A stretch of 32,881 bases of DNA, taken from positions 8,111-40,991 of the forward strand of contig AZYC01000005.1 of NCBI GenBank assembly GCA_000513075.1, read 5' to 3'. The stretch is from an alpha proteobacterium SCGC AAA288-G21 (GTDB taxonomy: Bacteria; Pseudomonadota; Alphaproteobacteria; Pelagibacterales; Pelagibacteraceae). The notes beneath the pieces are model-generated. The model worked only from the letters and a program-made list of their open reading frames with translations. It did not search any database and was not told where the DNA came from. Position 1 is the stretch's first letter. Each line of letters opens with the position of its first letter. Made by a program: the position numbers and the translations under genes. This document shows, one piece after another, positions 1,853 to 29,340 of this stretch.

Positions 1853-3256
1853 TTATTTATTTAAAACGGCTAAAACTTCTGCCTCTCTAGTATTTTCATT
1901 AAAAGACCGTGTAAATGGTATCGGAACAACTACTGCTTTAACCGGTTTTTTAGAATATTTTTTTGGTAAGTGAACTCTATATTTTTTACCAAAATTACCA
2001 ATTGGAAATCCTTTATTATTTAAATTTCCCTCATACGGAACATATCCCATTGCAATATTTTGTTTTTTTTCAGGATGATACCAGGGTGAAGTTATATAAC
2101 CAACCGGCTTACTGCCACTGTTTGAAATTAACCAAAAATCTGGCGCATATTCCTCAATGGGTTTTCCTCCCAATTCAAGACCCACAAGCTGGAGTTTATA
2201 AGGTTTTTCTCCTTTTTTAAGCTGTTCTTTCATTTTTTCCAGCGCTTCTTTTCCTACATAGTCTGTTTGTTTATTCCACTCACCCTTCCCTGATAAAGAA
2301 ACTTGATAACCCAAATTACATTGAAATGGATTATGTTCTTGGTCCATATCCTGTCCCCAAGATAATATTCCTGCCTGAATTCTTCTGTGATGTGCGGGAG
2401 CAATAACCATTAATTTATGTTTTTTTCCAACTTTAAGAACAGCGTTCCACATATCTTCTGCATGTAAAGTTGCATTACGAAGATAAATTTCATAACCCGC
2501 TTCTCCAGAAAATCCTGATTGTGAAATAACACAACTTCTTCCTCCAATGTTTGCTTCAGCTAAACCATAAAAAGGAATATGATCCATATCTACTTGATCA
2601 CCAATTAAATCTTGCATTAGAGCTTTAGCTTTTGGACCTTGAATTTGTACTGGACATACATCTATTTCATCTATTTCAACGTTGAATCTTTTATCAGCAT
2701 TAACGCCTTGTAAATACATACCAATATCGGAGTCTGATAAACTAAACCAAAATTCATCATCCCTAACCCTCATTAAAACTGGATCGTTAAGTACACCTCC
2801 TTTGTTATTGCACAAAACAACGTAACGTCCTCTCATAGGTGAAATTTTTTTTGCATCACGCGTTATTACATAATCTGTAAATTTTTCAGCATCAGGTCCT
2901 TTAACACAAATTTGTCTTTCAACAGCAACATTCCACATTGTTACGTGGTTTTTAATTGCCTCGTATTCAACCATGGCACCACCTTTTTCAGGTTTTACAT
3001 ATCCTCTTGGATGATAAACACGATTGTAAATAGTAGCTCTCCAACAACCTGCTTTCATTGATAAATGCCAATATGGAGATTTTCTAACCCGCGTTGAAAT
3101 CAACATTTCTACTTTTGTTGGTCCGCTCTGTCTTAAATTATAGGGTACTTGCCTGTCAGATTGATCTACTGAAGTTTCGTGTTTAACTTTATCGTAATTT
3201 ATTTTTTCAGATTTAAATGAAACTGATTTTGTTTTTTTCTTTTTCTTTTTAGGCAT
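1853..3256 (-). CDS. GcvT/DmdA-like aminomethyltransferase family protein with extra Lys-rich N-terminus
   Basis: 'MWNVAVERQICVKGPDAEKFTDYVITRD....GRYVVLCNNKGGVLNDPVLMRV..DEFWFSLSDSD' and 'SGFSGEAGYEIYLR' are GcvT/DmdA family motifs; overlaps the metF-like gene by 8 nt. Confidence 0.8.
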   Translation of the reverse strand: MPKKKKKKTKSVSFKSEKINYDKVKHETSVDQSDRQVPYNLRQSGPTKVEMLISTRVRKSPYWHLSMKAGCWRATIYNRVYHPRGYVKPEKGGAMVEYEAIKNHVTMWNVAVERQICVKGPDAEKFTDYVITRDAKKISPMRGRYVVLCNNKGGVLNDPVLMRVRDDEFWFSLSDSDIGMYLQGVNADKRFNVEIDEIDVCPVQIQGPKAKALMQDLIGDQVDMDHIPFYGLAEANIGGRSCVISQSGFSGEAGYEIYLRNATLHAEDMWNAVLKVGKKHKLMVIAPAHHRRIQAGILSWGQDMDQEHNPFQCNLGYQVSLSGKGEWNKQTDYVGKEALEKMKEQLKKGEKPYKLQLVGLELGGKPIEEYAPDFWLISNSGSKPVGYITSPWYHPEKKQNIAMGYVPYEGNLNNKGFPIGNFGKKYRVHLPKKYSKKPVKAVVVPIPFTRSFNENTREAEVLAVLNK

Positions 3257-3977
3257 ATTTTTTCTCCATTAACCATGTTTTCGTTTCTTTTAAGCTACCA
3301 AAAGTATAAATATGAAAGTTACTCGTTACACTTTTAACTTTCTTTATTAAATCATTGGGGTCTTTAGGTCTCAATAAATCAAATGTTTTACCCAAATTTG
3401 ATTTTATAAAATTTATGGAATTTTTTGCTCCGACAGTATTAGCAAATTTTAATAGACCGCTAACTTTCATAGGTCCTGTGATACCAACATGCACTGGGAT
3501 TGTTTGTTTAGAAACAAATTTTATTATGGGATCAGGTTCCATCAACCATTGAGTTACTATATAATCTGCGTAAGGCTTTTTATCCTTCATAGCTTTTTCT
3601 AAATCCGAGTCGGATATATCAGGAGAGCCGTCGGGATGTCCAGCAATTCCTATTCTGAAACCTTCAAATAATCCTGTCTCTAATAGTTGTAAAGAACAAT
3701 GAAAATTTCCGACTGGTTGGGCACTCCCTCCTATAACTAATGCTTGTTTAACTCCACCATCTTTACATCTCATTACATAGTCCTTTAAAATATCCAGGTT
3801 TTTAATTGATCTGGCTGGAAAATGAGGTACTGGATTAAAACTCAAATTTGCTAGTTCCTTTGCTTTCTCAGCAACCTGTCTAAAATCTTCACCGGGAAGC
3901 AAAGTTATATAAACGTCTTTAACCTTTGGAAGGTTGCTCAGATTGGTCTTTAAACCAATTTCTAGGGAGAAATTCAT
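3249..3977 (-). CDS. methylenetetrahydrofolate reductase (MetF)-like protein
   Basis: 242 aa; 'VYITLLPGED', 'FNPVPHFPARSI', 'ALVIGGSAQPVGNF', 'FRIGIAGHPDGSPDI', 'ADYIVTQWLMEP' match the MTHFR fold. Confidence 0.78.
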   Translation of the reverse strand: MNFSLEIGLKTNLSNLPKVKDVYITLLPGEDFRQVAEKAKELANLSFNPVPHFPARSIKNLDILKDYVMRCKDGGVKQALVIGGSAQPVGNFHCSLQLLETGLFEGFRIGIAGHPDGSPDISDSDLEKAMKDKKPYADYIVTQWLMEPDPIIKFVSKQTIPVHVGITGPMKVSGLLKFANTVGAKNSINFIKSNLGKTFDLLRPKDPNDLIKKVKSVTSNFHIYTFGSLKETKTWLMEKKYA

Positions 3978-4106: not shown

Positions 4107-5303
4107 ATGGATCGCAAACTTAATGGACAAAAAGGCATTTACGATATTGTAAATAAGGAAAAATTAGATGTAGTCAGTAACCCTATTGCTGAAGCTCATG
4201 GTTTACCAAATGAATGTTACAATAGTAAAGAATACACAAAAATAGAAAGAAAAAAATTATTTGAAGATAAATGGGTTGTTATCGGTGTTGCCAGTTCAGT
4301 TCCTAACCCTGGGGATGCAAAGCCTTTTGACTTACTAGGAATTCCCTTAATTATTTTACGAAATAAAAAAAAGCAAATTAAAGTTTATCATAATGTTTGC
4401 AGTCATAGAGGCTATAAAATTTTACAGAAGAAATGCAGTATAAAAAATGTTTTACGTTGTCCTTATCATTCTTGGTCATACAATTTAGATGGCACACTTG
4501 TTGCAACACCTAATCTTGGCGGAATGGATAAACATGAGGCGGAAGGTTTTGACAAATCTTCCAGCGGACTTAAGGAAGTTCGTTCTTATGTTTGGCTAGA
4601 TATGATTATTGTCAATATTTCAAATAATGAAGTCTCATTCGATAAATATATTAAACCTTTAAGCGATCGTTGGTCTAAATTTTGGCCAAAAGAAGATCAG
4701 AAATTAATTCGACATTCGAAAGACTTAGGTTATTTTAAATTAAAAGCAAAATGTAATTGGAAATTTGCAATAGAAAATTACTGCGAAAGCTACCATTTAC
4801 CTTGGGTCCATCCAGGATTAAATACCTATTCAAAAATCAGCGATCATTATCATATCCAAGGCCTACCAAATAGATTTGCTGGTCAAGGAACAGTTGTTTA
4901 CAATCCTCGATTTAAGAGCAAAAAAAAATTTCCTTGTTTTCCTAATTGGAAAAAAAACAAAAAAAACATTGCAGAATATGTTGCTCTTTTTCCAAACGTA
5001 ATGCTAGGTATTCACAAAGATCATTATTATGTTTATTGGTTAGAGCCTGTTAATCATGCATATACTTTAGAGCATATGGAAATTTATTATGTGGGTGAAG
5101 AAGCTGCGAATTCTAAAAAATTTAAACCTCTTAGAAAACAAAATTTAAATCTCTGGCGTGGAGTCCAGTCGGAAGATGTGCACATAATTGAAGGTATGCA
5201 AGAAGGACGAAATTCGCCTTCTTATAATGGAGGTAATTTTTCACCAGTTATGGACAATCCTACTCACCATTTTCATAAATGGGTAGCAACAAATTTAGTT
5301 TGA
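4107..5303 (+). CDS. Rieske [2Fe-2S] aromatic-ring-hydroxylating-type oxygenase alpha subunit
   Basis: Rieske motif C-S-H(16)C-P-Y-H ('CSHRGYKILQKKCSIKNVLRCPYHSW') and mononuclear iron motif 'ENYCESYHLPWVHPGL'. Confidence 0.9.
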   Translation: MDRKLNGQKGIYDIVNKEKLDVVSNPIAEAHGLPNECYNSKEYTKIERKKLFEDKWVVIGVASSVPNPGDAKPFDLLGIPLIILRNKKKQIKVYHNVCSHRGYKILQKKCSIKNVLRCPYHSWSYNLDGTLVATPNLGGMDKHEAEGFDKSSSGLKEVRSYVWLDMIIVNISNNEVSFDKYIKPLSDRWSKFWPKEDQKLIRHSKDLGYFKLKAKCNWKFAIENYCESYHLPWVHPGLNTYSKISDHYHIQGLPNRFAGQGTVVYNPRFKSKKKFPCFPNWKKNKKNIAEYVALFPNVMLGIHKDHYYVYWLEPVNHAYTLEHMEIYYVGEEAANSKKFKPLRKQNLNLWRGVQSEDVHIIEGMQEGRNSPSYNGGNFSPVMDNPTHHFHKWVATNLV

Positions 5304-5304
5304 T

Positions 5305-6540
5305 ATGAAATTTAACAGAAAAATTGCTTCAAATACAAAACCCAAACCAAATTTTGTAACAAAGAAAAGATTAAGAGAAGATGAAATAAATTTTGATCAA
5401 CTTAGATCATACAGATTAGATAGAGTTAAAAAAGAGTTAGAAAAAAATAATCTTGAGGCTTGTATATTATTTGATCCAGTTAACGTTAGATATGCATTGG
5501 ATACGACTAATATGAGTATTTATAATATGCATAACTTAACTCGTTATTGTTTTATACCCGTAAACGGTCCTGTAATTCTTTATGAATATTTTAATTGTGA
5601 GGAATTAGCTAGCCATTTAAATTTGATTAATGAGATAAGACCAGCAATAACTTGGGATTATTTCAGTAACGGAGACCAAGCAGGAGACCAATTAGAAAAG
5701 TGGATTAATGAAGTTAAAGATTTATCAAATTCATATTGCAAAAGTAAAAAACTAGCAATTGACGTTCTTAATGGTCCTGCAGTAACAGCTTTGAATAAGG
5801 CAGGTATTGAAGTAGTGGATGCCAAATTAATTGTTGAACAGGCTAGAGTTATTAAATCTCCAGAGGAACTAAAATGTATGAAAGCAGCGCTCGACGTTGC
5901 GGAAATTGGTATTAATAAAATGAGAGAAGAATTAAAAGCGGGAATGACCGAAGATGAACTTTGGTCAATTTTACACAAAACTAATATTGAACATGGTGGT
6001 GAGTGGATTGAAGGTAAAATTTTATCCTCAGGTCAAAGAACAAATCCATGGATGCAAGAAAGTAGTAACAAAATCATTCAAAGTGGAGAAATGGTGTCTT
6101 TTGATACTGATATGGTTGGACCGTATGGGTATTGCGCAGATATATCGAGAGCTTTTGTTGAAGGACATAAATTTAATGGAGAACAAAAAAAATTGTACCA
6201 GATGGCAGTTGAACATATAAACCACAATTCTCGACTGATTAAACATGGAATGCCATTTAAGGAGTTCACTGAAAAATCTTGGAAACTTCCAAATGAATAT
6301 TATGGAAATAGGTATTCATGTATGGTTCATGGAATTGGTCTTTGTGATGAGTGGCCAATGATAAGATATCCTACTGATGGTGGTCAAAGAGAAGGTTGTT
6401 TTGAAAAAAATATGACCATTACCGTTGAAACTTACATTGGAAAAGTGGGTGGTAAAGAGGGAGTAAAATTAGAGCAACAATGCCTAGTCGGTGAAAATGG
6501 ACTTGAATTAATGTCCCATCATCCGTTAGAAGATTTGTAA
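5305..6540 (+). CDS. dddP: M24-family DddP-like protein (candidate DMSP lyase)
   Basis: 'LFDPVNVRYALDTTNM', 'GGEWIEGKILSSGQRTNPWMQE', 'FDTDMVGPYGYCADISRAF', 'YSCMVHGIGLCDEWPMI', 'TVETYIG', 'VKLEQQ' closely follow DddP; the D/D/D/H/E/E metal set is present. Confidence 0.78.
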   Translation: MKFNRKIASNTKPKPNFVTKKRLREDEINFDQLRSYRLDRVKKELEKNNLEACILFDPVNVRYALDTTNMSIYNMHNLTRYCFIPVNGPVILYEYFNCEELASHLNLINEIRPAITWDYFSNGDQAGDQLEKWINEVKDLSNSYCKSKKLAIDVLNGPAVTALNKAGIEVVDAKLIVEQARVIKSPEELKCMKAALDVAEIGINKMREELKAGMTEDELWSILHKTNIEHGGEWIEGKILSSGQRTNPWMQESSNKIIQSGEMVSFDTDMVGPYGYCADISRAFVEGHKFNGEQKKLYQMAVEHINHNSRLIKHGMPFKEFTEKSWKLPNEYYGNRYSCMVHGIGLCDEWPMIRYPTDGGQREGCFEKNMTITVETYIGKVGGKEGVKLEQQCLVGENGLELMSHHPLEDL

Positions 6541-6548
6541 TTAAAACA

Positions 6549-7400
6549 ATGAATAATAGATTAGAAACTATTGTTGATCTTAAAAAATACCCAATCCAGG
6601 ATTTAAATTCTCCATTAATAAAAGAATTAACAAAAAAATGTAAAAGTGATTTAGATCAGTTTAGTTGCGCTACTATTTCTAATTTTATTTTACCTAAATC
6701 TTTAAAAATAATGAATACAGAGTTAGAAAAACAACTCGATGAAGTTTATATGTCAAAACAAAGTATCAATGCATATTTGTATTCTAAAGATGATCCTTCC
6801 TTACCTAAAGATCATCCAAAACGAATATTTATGGATCGTTACAATGGATATTTAAATTCAAATGTTTTTGCAAAAGATTCGGAAATGAAATTTCTTTATG
6901 AACAAGATGAACTTTTAAAGTTTGTGTCTGCTTGCCTTGGTACATCCCCAATTTATCGATGGGCCGATCCTTTAGCTTGTCACGCTTATAATGTTATGAA
7001 GCCAGACGGCATTCTTCCATGGCATTTTGATAGTTGTGAGTTTACTTTAAGTTTCATGATACAAAAACCTGAAAAAGGCGGTATATTTGAATACTGTCCA
7101 AATATACGCGGACCAAGAAATGAAAATTTAGAAGAAGTTAAAAAAGTACTTGATGGAGACCGCAAAAGAGTTCGTCAATTAGAATTAGAACCGGGTGATT
7201 TACAAATATTTAAAGGACGTTTTACACTTCATAGTGTTACAAAAATAGAAGGAAGCCGTTCCAGATATCTTTGTATACCAGCTTATGTTCTTGATCCCTG
7301 GAGAGTAAACACCCCAGAACATTCAAAAGCTATATATGGAAAAGTATTACCAATTCACATTGAAAGAAATAAACCTAGATCCGATGGTTTAGCTGATTAA
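6549..7400 (+). CDS. 2OG-Fe(II) oxygenase family protein (copy 1)
   Basis: 'PWHFDSCEFTLSFMIQ' (HxD) and 'GDLQIFKGRFTLHSVTKIEGSRSRYLCIPAY' (distal His, Arg) typical of Fe(II)/2OG oxygenases. Confidence 0.75.
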   Translation: MNNRLETIVDLKKYPIQDLNSPLIKELTKKCKSDLDQFSCATISNFILPKSLKIMNTELEKQLDEVYMSKQSINAYLYSKDDPSLPKDHPKRIFMDRYNGYLNSNVFAKDSEMKFLYEQDELLKFVSACLGTSPIYRWADPLACHAYNVMKPDGILPWHFDSCEFTLSFMIQKPEKGGIFEYCPNIRGPRNENLEEVKKVLDGDRKRVRQLELEPGDLQIFKGRFTLHSVTKIEGSRSRYLCIPAYVLDPWRVNTPEHSKAIYGKVLPIHIERNKPRSDGLAD

Positions 7401-7402
7401 AT

Positions 7403-8239
7403 ATGAAAGAGGTAATAAATTTAGAAACATATCCTATAAATGATACAGGATCTATAAAGTATAGGGAGTTAATTAATTATACTCGAAAACAACTTAATGA
7501 AGATGGTTGTTGTGTACTTTCCAATTTTATTAAACCAGATTCTATCCAAAGAATGAAAAATGAAGTGGATAAAAAATTAAGTAAAATTTATTTTACAAGT
7601 GATAAACATAATCCATATTTTACAAAAGACGATAAAACTCTTCCTGAAGATCATCCAAAAAGAATATTTACTGTTAGACAAAGTGGTTACTTAAATTCAG
7701 ATGTCTTAGAAAAAGATTCAGATCTAAATAAGTTTTATGATTTAGAAGAAATGCTAAAATTTGTATCAGATAGTCTTGAAGTATTTCCTCTTTACACATG
7801 GGCAGATCCTCTGGGTAAAAATCCTTACAGTGTTATGCATAATAATCATTATTTTCCTTGGCACTTTGATGGAAATGAATTCACCTTAAGTATTTTGGTT
7901 CAAAAAGCTGAAAAAGGAGGATTTTTTGAGTACGCTCCAGATATAAGAAGTAAAGATAATGAAAGCTTTGAAGAAGTTAGTAAAGTTTTAAAAGGTGACA
8001 GAAAAAAAGTTAAATCTTTAGATTTAAAACCTGGTGATCTACAAATTTTTAAAGGAAGATTTTCAATGCACCGAGTAACAAAAATTGAAGGGAAAACATC
8101 CAGATATATTGCTTTACCGTGTTATGTAAAAGACCCTTTAAAGATTAATAAACCTGAACATTCTAAGCAAGTTTATGGAAAAGCCTTGCCTATTCATTTT
8201 GAAAGAGAGAATATTCAAGGAGATGGATTAATAGACTGA
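7403..8239 (+). CDS. 2OG-Fe(II) oxygenase family protein (copy 2, paralogous to preceding gene)
   Basis: 'PWHFDGNEFTLSILVQ...GDLQIFKGRFSMHRVTKIEGKTSRY'; colinear with the preceding gene throughout. Confidence 0.75.
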   Translation: MKEVINLETYPINDTGSIKYRELINYTRKQLNEDGCCVLSNFIKPDSIQRMKNEVDKKLSKIYFTSDKHNPYFTKDDKTLPEDHPKRIFTVRQSGYLNSDVLEKDSDLNKFYDLEEMLKFVSDSLEVFPLYTWADPLGKNPYSVMHNNHYFPWHFDGNEFTLSILVQKAEKGGFFEYAPDIRSKDNESFEEVSKVLKGDRKKVKSLDLKPGDLQIFKGRFSMHRVTKIEGKTSRYIALPCYVKDPLKINKPEHSKQVYGKALPIHFERENIQGDGLID

Positions 8240-8970
8240 TGAGAAAAAATATTAATGAAGCTGAGTGGAAAGTAAGAGTAGATCTTGCAGCTATGTTCAG
8301 ATTAACCCATATGATGGGCTGGGATGATACTATTTGGAATCATATCACTGCAAGAACACCAGGAACAGATCACACTTTTTTTATGCATCAATTTGGACTC
8401 GTTTACGAAGAGGTAAAAGCTTCTAATTTAATTAAGGTGGATGAAAATGGTAAAGTTCTAGAAGGACCTTCAGATGTTAATACTGCAGGTTTTATAATTC
8501 ATAGCGCAGTACATTTAAATCATCCAAAAAATAAATTTGTTTTTCATGCTCATCCTCCAAAAGCCTTGGCTGCAACATCATTAAAAAATGGAATCCCTCA
8601 TTTAGTTCAAGACTCCTCAATGCTTTATGGAAAGGTTGGTTATCATGATTGGGAAGGATTATCTGTTGATAAAGATGAGAGATTTAGAATAGCTGAAAAT
8701 CTTGGAGAAAATAAAGTCTTAATAATGAGAAATCACGGATTATTAACTGTTGGGGAAACCGCAGGAGAGTCATTTATGAATATGTATTACGCGGTAAGAA
8801 TGTGCGAAGTTGCTGTTCAAGCTCAAAGTTCTGGTTTGGAATTAAAGTCTGCTAGTAAAGAATTATGGGAAAAATCTCAAAAACAATATGATGCTTTTTT
8901 TCCAGGTGTAAGTGAATGGCCAGCCTTACTCAGAAGATGTGATTCCGTGGATCCATCTTACAAAGAGTAA
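8239..8970 (+). CDS. class II aldolase/adducin family protein
   Basis: 'WNHITARTPG', 'FVFHAHPPKALAATSL', 'VLIMRNHGLLTVGET' motifs; start overlaps previous stop (TGATG). Confidence 0.85.
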   Translation: MRKNINEAEWKVRVDLAAMFRLTHMMGWDDTIWNHITARTPGTDHTFFMHQFGLVYEEVKASNLIKVDENGKVLEGPSDVNTAGFIIHSAVHLNHPKNKFVFHAHPPKALAATSLKNGIPHLVQDSSMLYGKVGYHDWEGLSVDKDERFRIAENLGENKVLIMRNHGLLTVGETAGESFMNMYYAVRMCEVAVQAQSSGLELKSASKELWEKSQKQYDAFFPGVSEWPALLRRCDSVDPSYKE

Positions 8971-8972
8971 TC

Positions 8973-9911
8973 ATGATTAAAAATGTTGCTGTTATAGGCA
9001 CTGGAGTGATTGGTGCTGGCTGGATTATTAGATGTTTAGCTCACAATAAAAAAGTTGTTGCGTTTGATAAAGATCTAAAATTAAAAAAAAGATTAATTGC
9101 TGAGATAAAACGTACTTGGCCTTATGTAAAAAAATTATTTAATAAAAAAAAACTCAATCTTAAAAATTTTAAATATGTTACTTCAATAGAAGAAGCTCTG
9201 AAAGAAGCTGACTTTGTTCAGGAATGTGCAACTGAAAATTATAGAATAAAAACTAAGTTAATGAGCATCATTGGAAAATATTCAAAGCCTAATACTATTA
9301 TTTCATCAAGCTCATCAGGATTGCTTCCAACAAGAATATATTCCAAATGTAAAAATCCAGCACGAACAATGATCGGACATCCATTTAATCCTGTTTATAT
9401 GTGCCCTGGAGTTGAAGTTGTTCCAGGTAAAAAAACAAAGAAAGTTTTTCTAAATAAAGCCAATAAATTTTATAAATCAATATCAATGAATCCAATCATG
9501 GTTAAAAAAGAATTGCCTGGCTATTTAGCTGACAGGCTACAAGAAGCTTTGTGGAGAGAAGCTTTGCATATAGTAAATGAAGGTTATGCATCAACTAAAG
9601 ATTTGGACAGATCAATTGAAGATGGACCAGGATTAAGATGGTCATTAATGGGAATATTTTTAACTTATCATTTAGCAGGAGGTAAAGCTGGAATGAAGCA
9701 TATGCTTGAACAATTTGGTCCTGCGTTAAAATTACCTTGGACTAAATTAAAAGCTCCAAAACTTTCGAAAAAATTATCTTCAAGAGTTATTTCAGGTACC
9801 AGACAACAAGCCAAAGGAAAATCTGTTGCAATGATTTCAAATATAAGAGATGAATATTTAGTTAACCTTCAAAAACTTAGAAAAAAATACGAAAATAAAA
9901 TTAGAAAATGA
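8973..9911 (+). CDS. 3-hydroxyacyl-CoA dehydrogenase family protein, L-carnitine dehydrogenase-like
   Basis: 'VAVIGTGVIGAGWIIRCLAHN' NAD site; 'GHPFNPVYMCPGVEVVPG', 'PGYLADRLQEALWREALHIVNEGYAST', 'GPGLRWSLMGIFLTYHLAGGKAGMKHMLEQFGPALKLPW' resemble bacterial L-carnitine dehydrogenase. Confidence 0.82.
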   Translation: MIKNVAVIGTGVIGAGWIIRCLAHNKKVVAFDKDLKLKKRLIAEIKRTWPYVKKLFNKKKLNLKNFKYVTSIEEALKEADFVQECATENYRIKTKLMSIIGKYSKPNTIISSSSSGLLPTRIYSKCKNPARTMIGHPFNPVYMCPGVEVVPGKKTKKVFLNKANKFYKSISMNPIMVKKELPGYLADRLQEALWREALHIVNEGYASTKDLDRSIEDGPGLRWSLMGIFLTYHLAGGKAGMKHMLEQFGPALKLPWTKLKAPKLSKKLSSRVISGTRQQAKGKSVAMISNIRDEYLVNLQKLRKKYENKIRK

Positions 9912-11128
9912 CTTCCGTAAATAACTTAAACGATATTGTAGATAATGGCCTTTGTATTGGTTGTGGCCTTTGTCAAAGTATCGCAGGTAAGGAAAATATT
10001 GAAATTTCGATGACTCCTAAAGGAAGGCTTGAGCCAAAAGAGATCGGCGAAATTAGTCCGGAAGTTTTTAAAAAGATATTAAATGTTTGTCCTGGAACAA
10101 TTGTTGAAGGGCTTCCTAAAGAAGAAGTTGCAACTAAAACTGAACACAACCTTGTGTGGGGGTACTACTTATCCCTTTGTTACTCATGGTCTACTGACAA
10201 AAAAATTAGGTTTGAAAGTTCTACTGGTGGTTTACTAAATGGACTATCAATTTATTTGCTCGAGTCAAAAAAAGTAAAATTTATTATGCACACAGCTGCT
10301 AATCCAAAAAAACCAATGAGAAGTTTACCAAAATTTAGTTATAGCAAAGAAGAACTTTTAAGCGGTGAAAGTAGATCAAGATATGGTCCAGCAGGAACAT
10401 TAGAAAGATTTCATGAAGCTCTTGATTTAAATGAGCCCTTCGCTTTTGTTGGTAAACCCTGTGATATCAGTGCAATCAGATTGCTATCTAAAACTGATTC
10501 TAGAGTAAACAAACTTTGTAAATTTTTACTAACTTTAGTATGTGGGGGATTTGCTGAATTTACAAAAGCACAAGATTTTATTGAAAGTTTTAAGGTTAAA
10601 GAAGATGAATTATCTATCTTTAGGTATAGAGGATATGGAAATCCCGGAAGAATGTATATTAAAACAAAAGATGGTCGTGAATATGATAGAGAATATAATT
10701 CTTTTTGGGGAGAAGAATCTACATGGAGAGTTCCCTTTAGATGCAAAATATGTCCAGACGCTATAGGTGAAAGTGCAGACGTAGCTGCACTAGATACGTG
10801 GAGAGGAGGTTCTCCTAAAGGAGAAGATGAAGGTTTTAACGCTGCTATTATAAGAACAAAAAAAGGATTAGATTTGATGAATGACGCAACCAAAGCTGGT
10901 TTTATTCATATTGGAGATAAATTAAAAATAGAAGATATTGATGATTTTCAACCTCATCAAGTGAACAAAAAAAAAGCAGTTTATGCTAGACATCTTGGAA
11001 TGACAAAGAATGATTCACCTACTATCAATACGATAGGATTAAGGATTAAAGAATTATATAAACTAAACAGTGAAGATTTTAATAAAAAAGAAGAATTGGG
11101 TGTTGGAAAAAGAATAAAAAAAATTTAA
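9908..11128 (+). CDS. coenzyme F420 hydrogenase/dehydrogenase beta-subunit (FrhB)-like iron-sulfur flavoprotein
   Basis: N-terminal 'CIGCGLCQ...CPG' cluster motif, '[13 protein letters not shown]', '[16 protein letters not shown]', '[20 protein letters not shown]'; ATGA overlap with upstream gene. Confidence 0.82.
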
Positions 11129-12565
11129 TTATTATTCCAGCCGCCGACTGTTTTGACTTCTAAAAACTCTTCTATACCTATAACTCCAGCTTCACGGCCA
11201 ATTCCAGAATGTTTATATCCACCGAATGGAGCATCAACTGCAATACCTGCACCATTAACATCTACCATTCCTGATCTTAATTTTCTTGCAACCCTATTTG
11301 CTTTTTTTCTGATCTTGGGTTTGAATATAATTTGTAAGACCATAAGGTGTATCATTTGCAATTTTGATTGCCTCTTCTTCTGTTTCAAAAGGAATAATTG
11401 ACAAAACTGGTCCAAAGATTTCTGTTCTAGCAATTTCCATTTGATTGTTAACGTCAGCAAAAGCTGTGGGCTTAACAAAATAACCTTTTTCTAAACCTTC
11501 TGGTTTTCCAACTCCTCCTGCAACTAATTTTGCTCCTTCGTCTATTCCTTTTTGAATTAATGTTTGAATTTTATTAAATTGAGTCTCAGATATTACTGGA
11601 CCAATATGATCACCTTCTTTTTCTGGTAAATCAACTTTTGTTTTATTAGCAAAATTTTTTACTCTTTCTACAGCTTCGCTATACATTGATTTTTCAACCA
11701 ACATTCTTGTCGGTGCATTACAAGATTGTCCAGAGTTTCTAAAACATCTTAAAGCTCCTCTTTCAACGGCCTCAGAGTCTGCATCTTTGAATATAATGTT
11801 TGCTCCTTTTCCTCCTAACTCTAGACTTATTCTTTTAAAGTCCTTTGCTGCATTTTGAGAAATTAAAGCACCTGCTCTAGTAGATCCTGTAAATGAAATC
11901 ATATTTACATCTGGATGGCTAGTTAGTGCATTACCTGTTGTAACTCCATCGCCGTTTACTAAATTAAAAACACCTGCTGGGAATTTTACTTCGTCAATCA
12001 TTTCAGCAAGTATCATAGATGATAAGGGTGCTAACTCTGATGGTTTCAATACCATTGTACAACCTGCTGCTAGCGCTGGTATTACTTTAAGACAAACCTG
12101 GTTCATTGGCCAATTCCAAGGAGTAATAAGTGCACAAACTCCTTTTGGTTCATATAAAATATTTTGGTTTTTTGCATGTTCACCAAGGATTTTCTCAAAT
12201 TTAAATTCTTTTAAATATCCAGTAAAGGATTTTATATGACTTGCACCAGTTCCTGCTTGGAGTTGCGATGAAAAGTCTTTTGGAGCTCCCATCTCTAAAG
12301 TAATGGCTTCTGCTATTTCAGCCCATCTTTTTTTGTAAACCACATAAAGTTTTTCCAACAATTCAACTCTTTCTTCTTTTGATGAAAAGCCCCAACTTTC
12401 AAAAGCTTTTTTTGCGGCAATAACTGCTGCATTAACATCATCAGCATTTCCTAATGATATAACTGCGCAATTTTTCTCAGTAGCTGGATCTATTACTTGA
12501 ATTTCTCTCGAGTTTTTTGGTGCAACCCATTGTCCATTAATATAAAATTTTTTTTTATCTAACAT
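11125..12565 (-). pseudogene. aldehyde dehydrogenase, single frameshift (functional if one A in an A7 run is removed)
   Basis: N-terminal frame 11294-12565 carries 'ITPWNWPMNQ', 'ELGGKGANI', 'NSGQSCNAPTRM'; C-terminal frame 11125-11478 carries '[18 protein letters not shown]...[13 protein letters not shown]'. Join lies at an A7 (minus strand) run around 11302-11310. Confidence 0.88.
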
Positions 12566-17166: not shown

Positions 17167-17300
17167 TGATCGATAATTTTTAATTCCTTGGGATGATATT
17201 TATTAAAATATTCTTCAAAGAAATCTTTGAGTTTTGGTTCTATACCTGGAATGACTGTTGAAATTTTAGTTATATTAATAAAATGTTTATAATTTAAATT
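17163..17300 (-). pseudogene. probable 3'-terminal remnant of an unidentified gene formerly upstream of the acyl-CoA synthetase
   Basis: Minus-strand reading ...FINITKISTVIPGIEPKLKDFFEEYFNKYHPKELKIIDQ*; its TGA overlaps the synthetase start (ATGA); no 5' part present. Confidence 0.45.
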
Positions 17301-18170
17301 ATAAAGATGCGTTAATTTTAAATGATGGTGGAAAACTTGTTAAGGAGTACCCCCAAATACCTGGGATAGATTTTTCGGGGAAAGTAGTAGAAAGCGAGAA
17401 TGCCAATTTTAAAATTGGTGATAATGTAATTTTAACGGGTTGGCGTGTAGGAGAAATATATCCGGGGGGGCTATACACAATTTGCAAGTGTTAAAAGTGA
17501 ATTCTTAGTAAAAACACCTAAAAATCTTACAAATAAACATGCGATGACATTAGGAACAGCAGGTATAACAGCTTTGCTCTGTTCTTTTGCAATAAAAGCA
17601 CGTGAAGAATTGTTATTAGGTGAAAAAATAAACAACGTTTTGGTTACGGGAGCTACTGGAGGCGTTGGTAGCATCGCAGTCATGATCTTATCAAAATTTG
17701 GTTACAAAGTAACTGCGGTTACTGGAAAAAAAGATCAAGATGATTTTTTAAAAAAATTAGGAGCTTCAAACATTATAAATCGAAAAGAATTTGAAGGTGA
17801 ACCAAAACTATTAGGTAAAGGATTATGGGATGGTGTAGTTGATACAGTAGGAGGAACTATATTATCTAATGTAATTTCTCAAACAAAACATTCGGGCATT
17901 GTTGCTGCATGTGGAAATGCAGGAGGAATAAAGCTAAATACTTCTGTTATGCCATTTATACTTCGAGGAATCAAATTATGGGGAATCGACTCCATTATGA
18001 TCAGTATCAAAAGGAGAGAATTTCTTTGGAACGAGGTGGTCAACTTAATTAATTTTGAAATACTTGAAAAGCATACTAAAACTGTTGGTTTAGAAGAATT
18101 ATTAAATATTTTTCCGAATATGCTTAAAGGAGAAATTTCTGGAAGAATTTTGGTAGACGTAAAGAAATAA
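17294..18170 (+). pseudogene. acuI: AcuI/YhdH-type acryloyl-CoA reductase (MDR family), N-terminally truncated and frameshifted
   Basis: Frame A from 17294: LNYKDALILNDGGKLVKEYPQIPGIDFSGKVVESENANFKIGDNVILTGWRVGEIYPGG; G7 run at 17464-17470; frame B: YTQFASVKSEFLVKTPKNLTNKHAMTLGTAGITALL...VTGATGGVGSIAV...DTVGG...MPFILRGIKLWGIDS. First ~40 residues absent. Confidence 0.82.
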
Positions 18171-29103: not shown

Positions 29104-29340
29104 TAATAATAAACAACTACAAAGTGATGGAAAAACAAAAAGAAAGATGATTTAATGAAACTAATTAAGAGGCAACTCTTAACTGGCCAGTTGAGGAAAA
29201 ACCGAGAGGTTCAAGCTCAGCGGGCAGAAAGTCTCGAACAGTAGAACTAAACATTCGAGGCGACTGGTGCGAAGGTAGTTCTCAACAGCGTACCAAACTG
29301 AAGATTCAGTGGCGAAAGCTACTGAGTCTTTTGGTTTTTT
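29104..29340 (+). ncRNA. candidate structured small RNA with intrinsic terminator (family not recognised)
   Basis: Non-coding, GC-richer than surroundings; hairpins TTAAGAG-GCAA-CTCTTAA, GTTGAG..AACC-GAGA-GGTT..CTCAGC, GTCTCGAA..TTCGAGGC, GGTGCG..CGTACC; loop-loop complement AGAACTA/TAGTTCT; terminator hairpin plus T-tract. 5' end is estimated from a TATAAA box. Confidence 0.72.

Follow-up and report, generated by a model that had tools for sequence, protein, structure and literature searches.

The protein P0001 could well be a dimetal enzyme of DddP-like type, from a separate SAR11/HIMB59-like clade, that acts on a methylated-ammonium zwitterion. We give this reading an even chance. P0001 is more likely an enzyme of methylated nitrogen than a source of DMS, because it belongs to a different branch from DddP and has genes of glycine betaine-type catabolism as neighbors. 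The gene lies in the window, by which we mean the whole stretch of 32,881 nucleotides that was analyzed.

5305 to 6540, forward strand: P0001, M24/DddP-superfamily metalloenzyme of 411 aa (Pfam Peptidase_M24, 112 bits; NCBIfam DddP, 355 bits against a cut-off of 600)

The ORF is intact. It passes the Pfam model PF00557 (cut-off of 23) and also matches Creatinase_N, and it stays below the cut-off of the DddP equivalog model, NF043017. DddP is a homodimer whose N-terminal domain completes the active site of the partner (PMC4108388). The phmmer alignment to 4rzy, the DddP of R. lacuscaerulensis (E 1.8e-82), pairs D267, D269, D279, H342, E375, and E390 of P0001 with Asp295, Asp297, Asp307, His371, Glu406, and Glu421 of DddP. 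These are all six metal ligands, in the numbering of PMC4108388. Likewise, Tyr337 is paired with Tyr366, and Asp348 with Asp377. An earlier note, made from the letters alone, had recognized these ligands and the Tyr and Asp around the HG motif, and all of them are present. As aligned, the correspondence with DddP is far beyond chance. The structure prediction that the same note proposed points the same way. The AlphaFold model of the monomer has a pLDDT of 93, and its four best PDB matches by Foldseek are DddP structures (TM 0.91, 33% identity). P0001 thus shares with DddP (4rzy, and 4b28 from R. denitrificans) the fold, the metal ligands, and the equivalents of Tyr366 and Asp377, at 33-38% identity.

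These features would also fit a divergent but genuine DMSP/DMSOP lyase. It would receive DMSP through the same betaine-type transporter and, by the DddP mechanism, release DMS and acrylate. The eight retained residues and the DddP structures as nearest solved relatives favor such a lyase, and against a betaine substrate they leave DMSP cleavage chemically possible. SAR11 is known to use DMSP, which weighs on the same side. Nevertheless, we regard this explanation as unlikely, for reasons of pocket, descent, and gene context given below. A creatinase- or ectoine-hydrolase-like C-N hydrolase, yielding sarcosine or a related N-methyl amino acid, seems far less probable still. The P0001 model does share its fold with creatinase (7yto, TM 0.74) and EutD/DoeA (6yo9, TM 0.73), and enzymes of the sarcosine/dimethylglycine type are encoded nearby. 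However, P0001 retains the complete metal set, which creatinase and DoeA are not known to need. The NCBIfam models for ectoine hydrolase (DoeA/EutD) give only 38 and 23 bits against cut-offs of 575 and 613.

The residue alignment comprised 95 superfamily rows, with three outgroup rows left out: 24 of the DddP clade, 22 of the P0001 clade, and 49 others. The six metal ligands are invariant in all of them. The Tyr366 equivalent is present in 24/24, 22/22, and 48/49 rows, respectively, and the Asp377 equivalent in 24/24, 22/22, and 38/49; the other superfamily proteins differ in that 11/49 lack this Asp. Because these residues are also kept across the superfamily outside the DddP clade, they are not diagnostic for a DMSP lyase. 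The diagnostic weight that the earlier note had given to the Tyr and the Asp does not hold.

Other positions separate the clades. W95, which we take to be the sulfur-contacting Trp of DddP, is W in 24/24 DddP rows, Y or F in 22/22 of the P0001 clade, and W in 36/49 of the others. Residue 103 is Ala in 24/24 DddP rows, a bulky Tyr/Phe in 22/22 of the P0001 clade, and Tyr in 46/49 of the others. In P0001 itself, Trp95 is replaced by Tyr73 and Ala103 by Tyr81, Trp133 corresponds to Phe in DddP, and Trp326 to a residue that is mostly His in DddP. All these positions except Trp95 were chosen post hoc from the alignment. The whole set, Trp95 included, follows descent and thus marks clades before anything else. 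Outside support exists for Trp95 alone, because a review reports that a conserved Trp and a Tyr bind the sulfur of DMSP in DddP (PMC5395565). The replacement of this Trp, together with the change at residue 103, argues against a DMSP lyase. As far as the alignment goes, the pocket is altered, not lost, with the sulfur-contacting Trp replaced and the Tyr366 and Asp377 equivalents retained.

The NCBIfam DddP model was searched in 385 genomes of the class (Alphaproteobacteria). It matched in 82 of them, in only 12 above the cut-off, and many of the positive genomes carry 2-4 copies. Among 100 sampled relatives, 27 have a homologue of P0001. Eleven of these (and one contig-edge fragment) are of the P0001 clade, and the remainder are of the DddP-clade type. 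We built two trees, one of 98 rows and a careful one of 60 rows, both without fungal and Oceanimonas DddP sequences. In both, DddP forms one group, and the P0001 clade with its HIMB59-like sister forms another. "HIMB59-like" is only a label for the sister genomes, whose M24 proteins show 53-56% identity. In the careful tree, the DddP clade and the clade containing P0001 each have support of 100/99, and the branch that parts them has 98/93. Forcing the P0001 clade into union with DddP cost 35 log-likelihood units and was rejected (p-AU 0.026), in a test made on the quick tree with the DddP rows defined by the tree itself.

Score agrees with this arrangement. With P0001 as the phmmer query, superfamily M24 proteins of other alphaproteobacteria (L159, L046, L041) reach 410-424 bits, against 265-286 bits for Roseobacter-type DddP, and they have Tyr81 in common with P0001. 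To our knowledge, no member of this alphaproteobacterial group has been tested. Sequences from family f2, of the same order as SAR11 (L014-L016), fall inside the DddP clade, and the protein of a fuller f2 locus, L057, scores 787 bits, above the cut-off of 600. By these placements, real DddP exists in the order of SAR11, and P0001 is not one. Clade, model cut-off, and Trp all set P0001 outside DddP, and the first two also speak against a DMSP lyase. The earlier note had left a true DMSP lyase and a diverged substrate side by side, and had named placement outside DddP with loss of the pocket as evidence against its view. The placement was found, within the sampling of our trees, and the loss was not.

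In the window, positions 4107-11128 form a single tight run on one strand, in which neighboring genes overlap or lie only a few bases apart. The run includes a Rieske oxygenase, so P0001 does stand inside an oxygenase operon, as first described. Two further genes diverge upstream of it.

1853 to 3256, reverse strand: GcvT/DmdA-like aminomethyltransferase, SAR11_1265 type (DmdA model, 245 bits against a cut-off of 410)
3249 to 3977, reverse strand: methylenetetrahydrofolate reductase-like protein, divergent, SAR11_1264 metF type (TIGR00677, 31 bits)
4107 to 5303, forward strand: Rieske oxygenase alpha subunit, quaternary-amine type (best solved relative carnitine monooxygenase 6y9c, E 1.8e-35)
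6549 to 7400, forward strand: Fe(II)/2OG enzyme 1, HalD/BesD-like (Pfam HalD, 45 bits)
7403 to 8239, forward strand: Fe(II)/2OG enzyme 2, HalD-like (Pfam HalD, 52 bits)
8239 to 8970, forward strand: class II aldolase/adducin family protein (NCBIfam PRK07044, 272 bits, over the cut-off of 207)
8973 to 9911, forward strand: 3-hydroxyacyl-CoA/carnitine dehydrogenase-like protein (L-carnitine dehydrogenase model, 347 bits, cut-off of 414)
9908 to 11128, forward strand: FrhB/FdhB-like iron-sulfur flavoprotein (Pfam FrhB_FdhB_C and FrhB_FdhB_N)

The Rieske gene stops 1 nt before the P0001 gene, and its product scores 125 bits with the GbcA model, under the cut-off of 670. The first Fe(II)/2OG enzyme is expected to be a hydroxylase because it carries WHFD, an HxD motif. 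It is present in 7/8 sampled Pelagibacteraceae that bear the M24 gene and in 0/29 that lack it, a pattern that the gain or loss of a single island would produce. The flavoprotein is a possible electron donor. The reductase-like protein scores 23.3 bits with Pfam MTHFR, just under the cut-off of 24. The aminomethyltransferase was considered as DmdA and rejected on its score. An aldehyde dehydrogenase gene at 11125-12565 (reverse strand) has its last part in an overlapping frame, likely a frameshift or sequence error. One could speculate that the Fe(II)/2OG, aldolase, aldehyde dehydrogenase, and carnitine-dehydrogenase-like genes make up a trimethyllysine-to-carnitine pathway.

A DMSP lyase would release acrylate, and an AcuI-like acrylyl-CoA reductase gene does lie 11 kb from P0001. 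However, it is outside the operon and frame-disrupted, and no acrylate genes were recognized within the operon of the window. This AcuI/YhdH-like gene (17280-18170, forward strand) has its N-terminal part in another frame, with the shift near a poly-G at about 17465; it is a pseudogene or carries a base-calling error.

The earlier note called the oxygenase setting unusual. The operon is real, but in most sampled SAR11 relatives the gene stands in a glycine betaine-type demethylation neighborhood. A contig scan gave 467 related loci, and the best 80 of the 467 were examined, all from Pelagibacteraceae or Pelagibacter. Homologues of P0001 are common in SAR11. Among the best 80, 48 loci extend for 7 kb or more upstream and 4 kb or more downstream. 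These 48 well-flanked loci (from the best 80 of 467) contain MTHFR in 48, Rieske in 48, GcvT-like genes in 46, ProX/ProW in 45, Fe/2OG in 44, BHMT in 43, DMGDH-like genes in 43, and a SAM methyltransferase in 42. When only genes in one continuous same-strand run are counted, no gap exceeding 150 nt, the figures are 47 for Rieske and 35 each for BHMT and DMGDH-like genes. The loci were selected for the presence of M24 and are mutually related, and the counts describe conserved synteny, not independent events. The BHMT of the SAR11 loci matches human BHMT (1lt7, E 1.5e-45).

In strain HTCC1062, metF and the aminomethyltransferase are SAR11_1264-1265 (PMC5069961), and dmgdh is SAR11_1253 (PMC3160333). 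The SAR11 genes for glycine betaine demethylation are BHMT, DMGDH, and sarcosine dehydrogenase (Sun et al. 2011, PMC3160333), and the M24 gene lies among them in most sampled M24-bearing loci. The accessible part of that account makes no mention of an M24 protein, and the term M24 is absent from PMC12478193. In the HIMB59-like sister clade, BHMT adjoins the M24 gene or is next but one in 2/3 loci, and in one locus (L061) the SAM methyltransferase of the SAR11 loci is directly beside it. A SAM methyltransferase (L121:8191-8820) is recurrent in the SAR11 operon. Likewise, small APS-kinase-like and NMN-adenylyltransferase-like proteins (L121:11236-14398 and orthologues) recur there.

Two observations on context count against a betaine substrate. 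The window copy of P0001 has no adjoining BHMT or DMGDH, with BHMT encoded elsewhere (C18). In addition, the real DddP of L057 occupies an analogous slot in family f2. At L057:5298-17729 it stands with gamma-butyrobetaine dioxygenase, carnitine dehydrogenase, a beta-keto acid cleavage enzyme, BHMT, DMGDH, and ProW/ProX, in what looks like an operon from gamma-butyrobetaine/carnitine to glycine betaine. Because a real DddP holds this slot, a betaine context is compatible with DMSP, and the locus favors a lyase to that extent. A betaine-type operon is one of the differences between P0001 and the solved DddP proteins, and M24 genes of both kinds are found next to betaine genes. In the DddP clade as a whole, MttB/MtgC/BHMT/DMGDH-like genes are present at 4/22 loci.

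Outside both clades, such genes occur within 9 kb at 11/30 superfamily loci, whereas of 20 control loci taken from those genomes only 1 has them (p 0.016). Three of the 30 loci supplied panel proteins and hence match themselves, and the sole matching control (L239) shares its contig with an M24 locus. The controls are also few, and we consider this comparison supportive, not strong. A second Fisher test, for which some loci were set aside, was selected after the outcome had been seen and carries no weight here. Some of these alphaproteobacterial M24 genes adjoin corrinoid MttB/MtgC and DMGDH-like genes; in diverse alphaproteobacteria (L189, L194, L197, L198, L201, L202), the M24 gene adjoins MttB-type and DMGDH-like genes, some with MtgC-like genes. 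No adjacent Rieske-M24 pair of the SAR11 kind was found among the other superfamily loci examined.

The remaining 19/30 loci are without demethylation genes. This would suit a peptidase-type M24, an Xaa-Pro dipeptidase-like enzyme or general amidohydrolase, whose betaine context would reflect hitch-hiking in a variable SAR11 region. The pita-bread fold and the metal set are common to prolidases, and the gene content of the M24 operon does differ among SAR11 genomes. Still, we find this improbable. P0001 scores 76 bits with the NCBIfam PepQ (prolidase) model, whose cut-off is 630, and BHMT is again linked to the M24 gene in the HIMB59-like clade, a separate lineage. DddP itself showed no activity on Val-Pro (PMC5395565).

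For an enzyme of methylated nitrogen, we propose the following mechanism. P0001 would be DddP-like in architecture, with the carboxylate of the substrate on the dimetal center and with Tyr337 and Asp348 as acid/base. The substrate would most likely be a methylated-ammonium compound of the glycine betaine, carnitine, or gamma-butyrobetaine kind, or a conjugate of one. Cleavage might proceed by elimination or hydrolysis, and the products would enter demethylation and the tetrahydrofolate pathway. In the window variant, the Rieske, Fe/2OG, aldolase, and carnitine-dehydrogenase-like enzymes may process the remaining chain.

These results could bear on ocean surveys. The survey of PMC8520302 searched for DddP by HMM at a cut-off of 1E-30, then examined residues and phylogeny, and assayed the enzymes of 9 sequences; DddP is listed there among the enzymes of Pelagibacterales. 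A profile made from our DddP-clade rows gives P0001 an E of 1.6e-109, and therefore a profile search at E 1e-30 would take it as DddP. It would pass a residue check limited to the metal ligands, the Tyr, and the Asp, but could be filtered out by one that takes in the Trp or by a phylogeny step. Should the Pelagibacterales matches of the survey belong to the P0001 clade, some of what is read as SAR11 "DddP" may not reflect DMS production, and the betaine operon contains a conserved gene with no assigned role. We rate slightly below even the wider proposal that a widespread, uncharacterized, DddP-related dimetal enzyme of SAR11 cleaves a betaine/carnitine-type osmolyte within the glycine betaine operon and is miscounted as DddP in surveys with loose E-values. 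SAR11 ranks with the most abundant groups of bacteria in the ocean, and its catabolism of betaines and its output of DMS are both important for carbon and climate models. P. bermudensis, a control without DMSP lyase in PMC10686828, was considered as an M24-bearing SAR11 strain and rejected, being Pelagibaca bermudensis, a roseobacter.

Neither the operon nor the BHMT genes of the relatives gave a riboswitch match in Rfam. The only Rfam match reported in the window is an IMES-2 RNA motif at 29158-29296 on the forward strand (133.7 bits).
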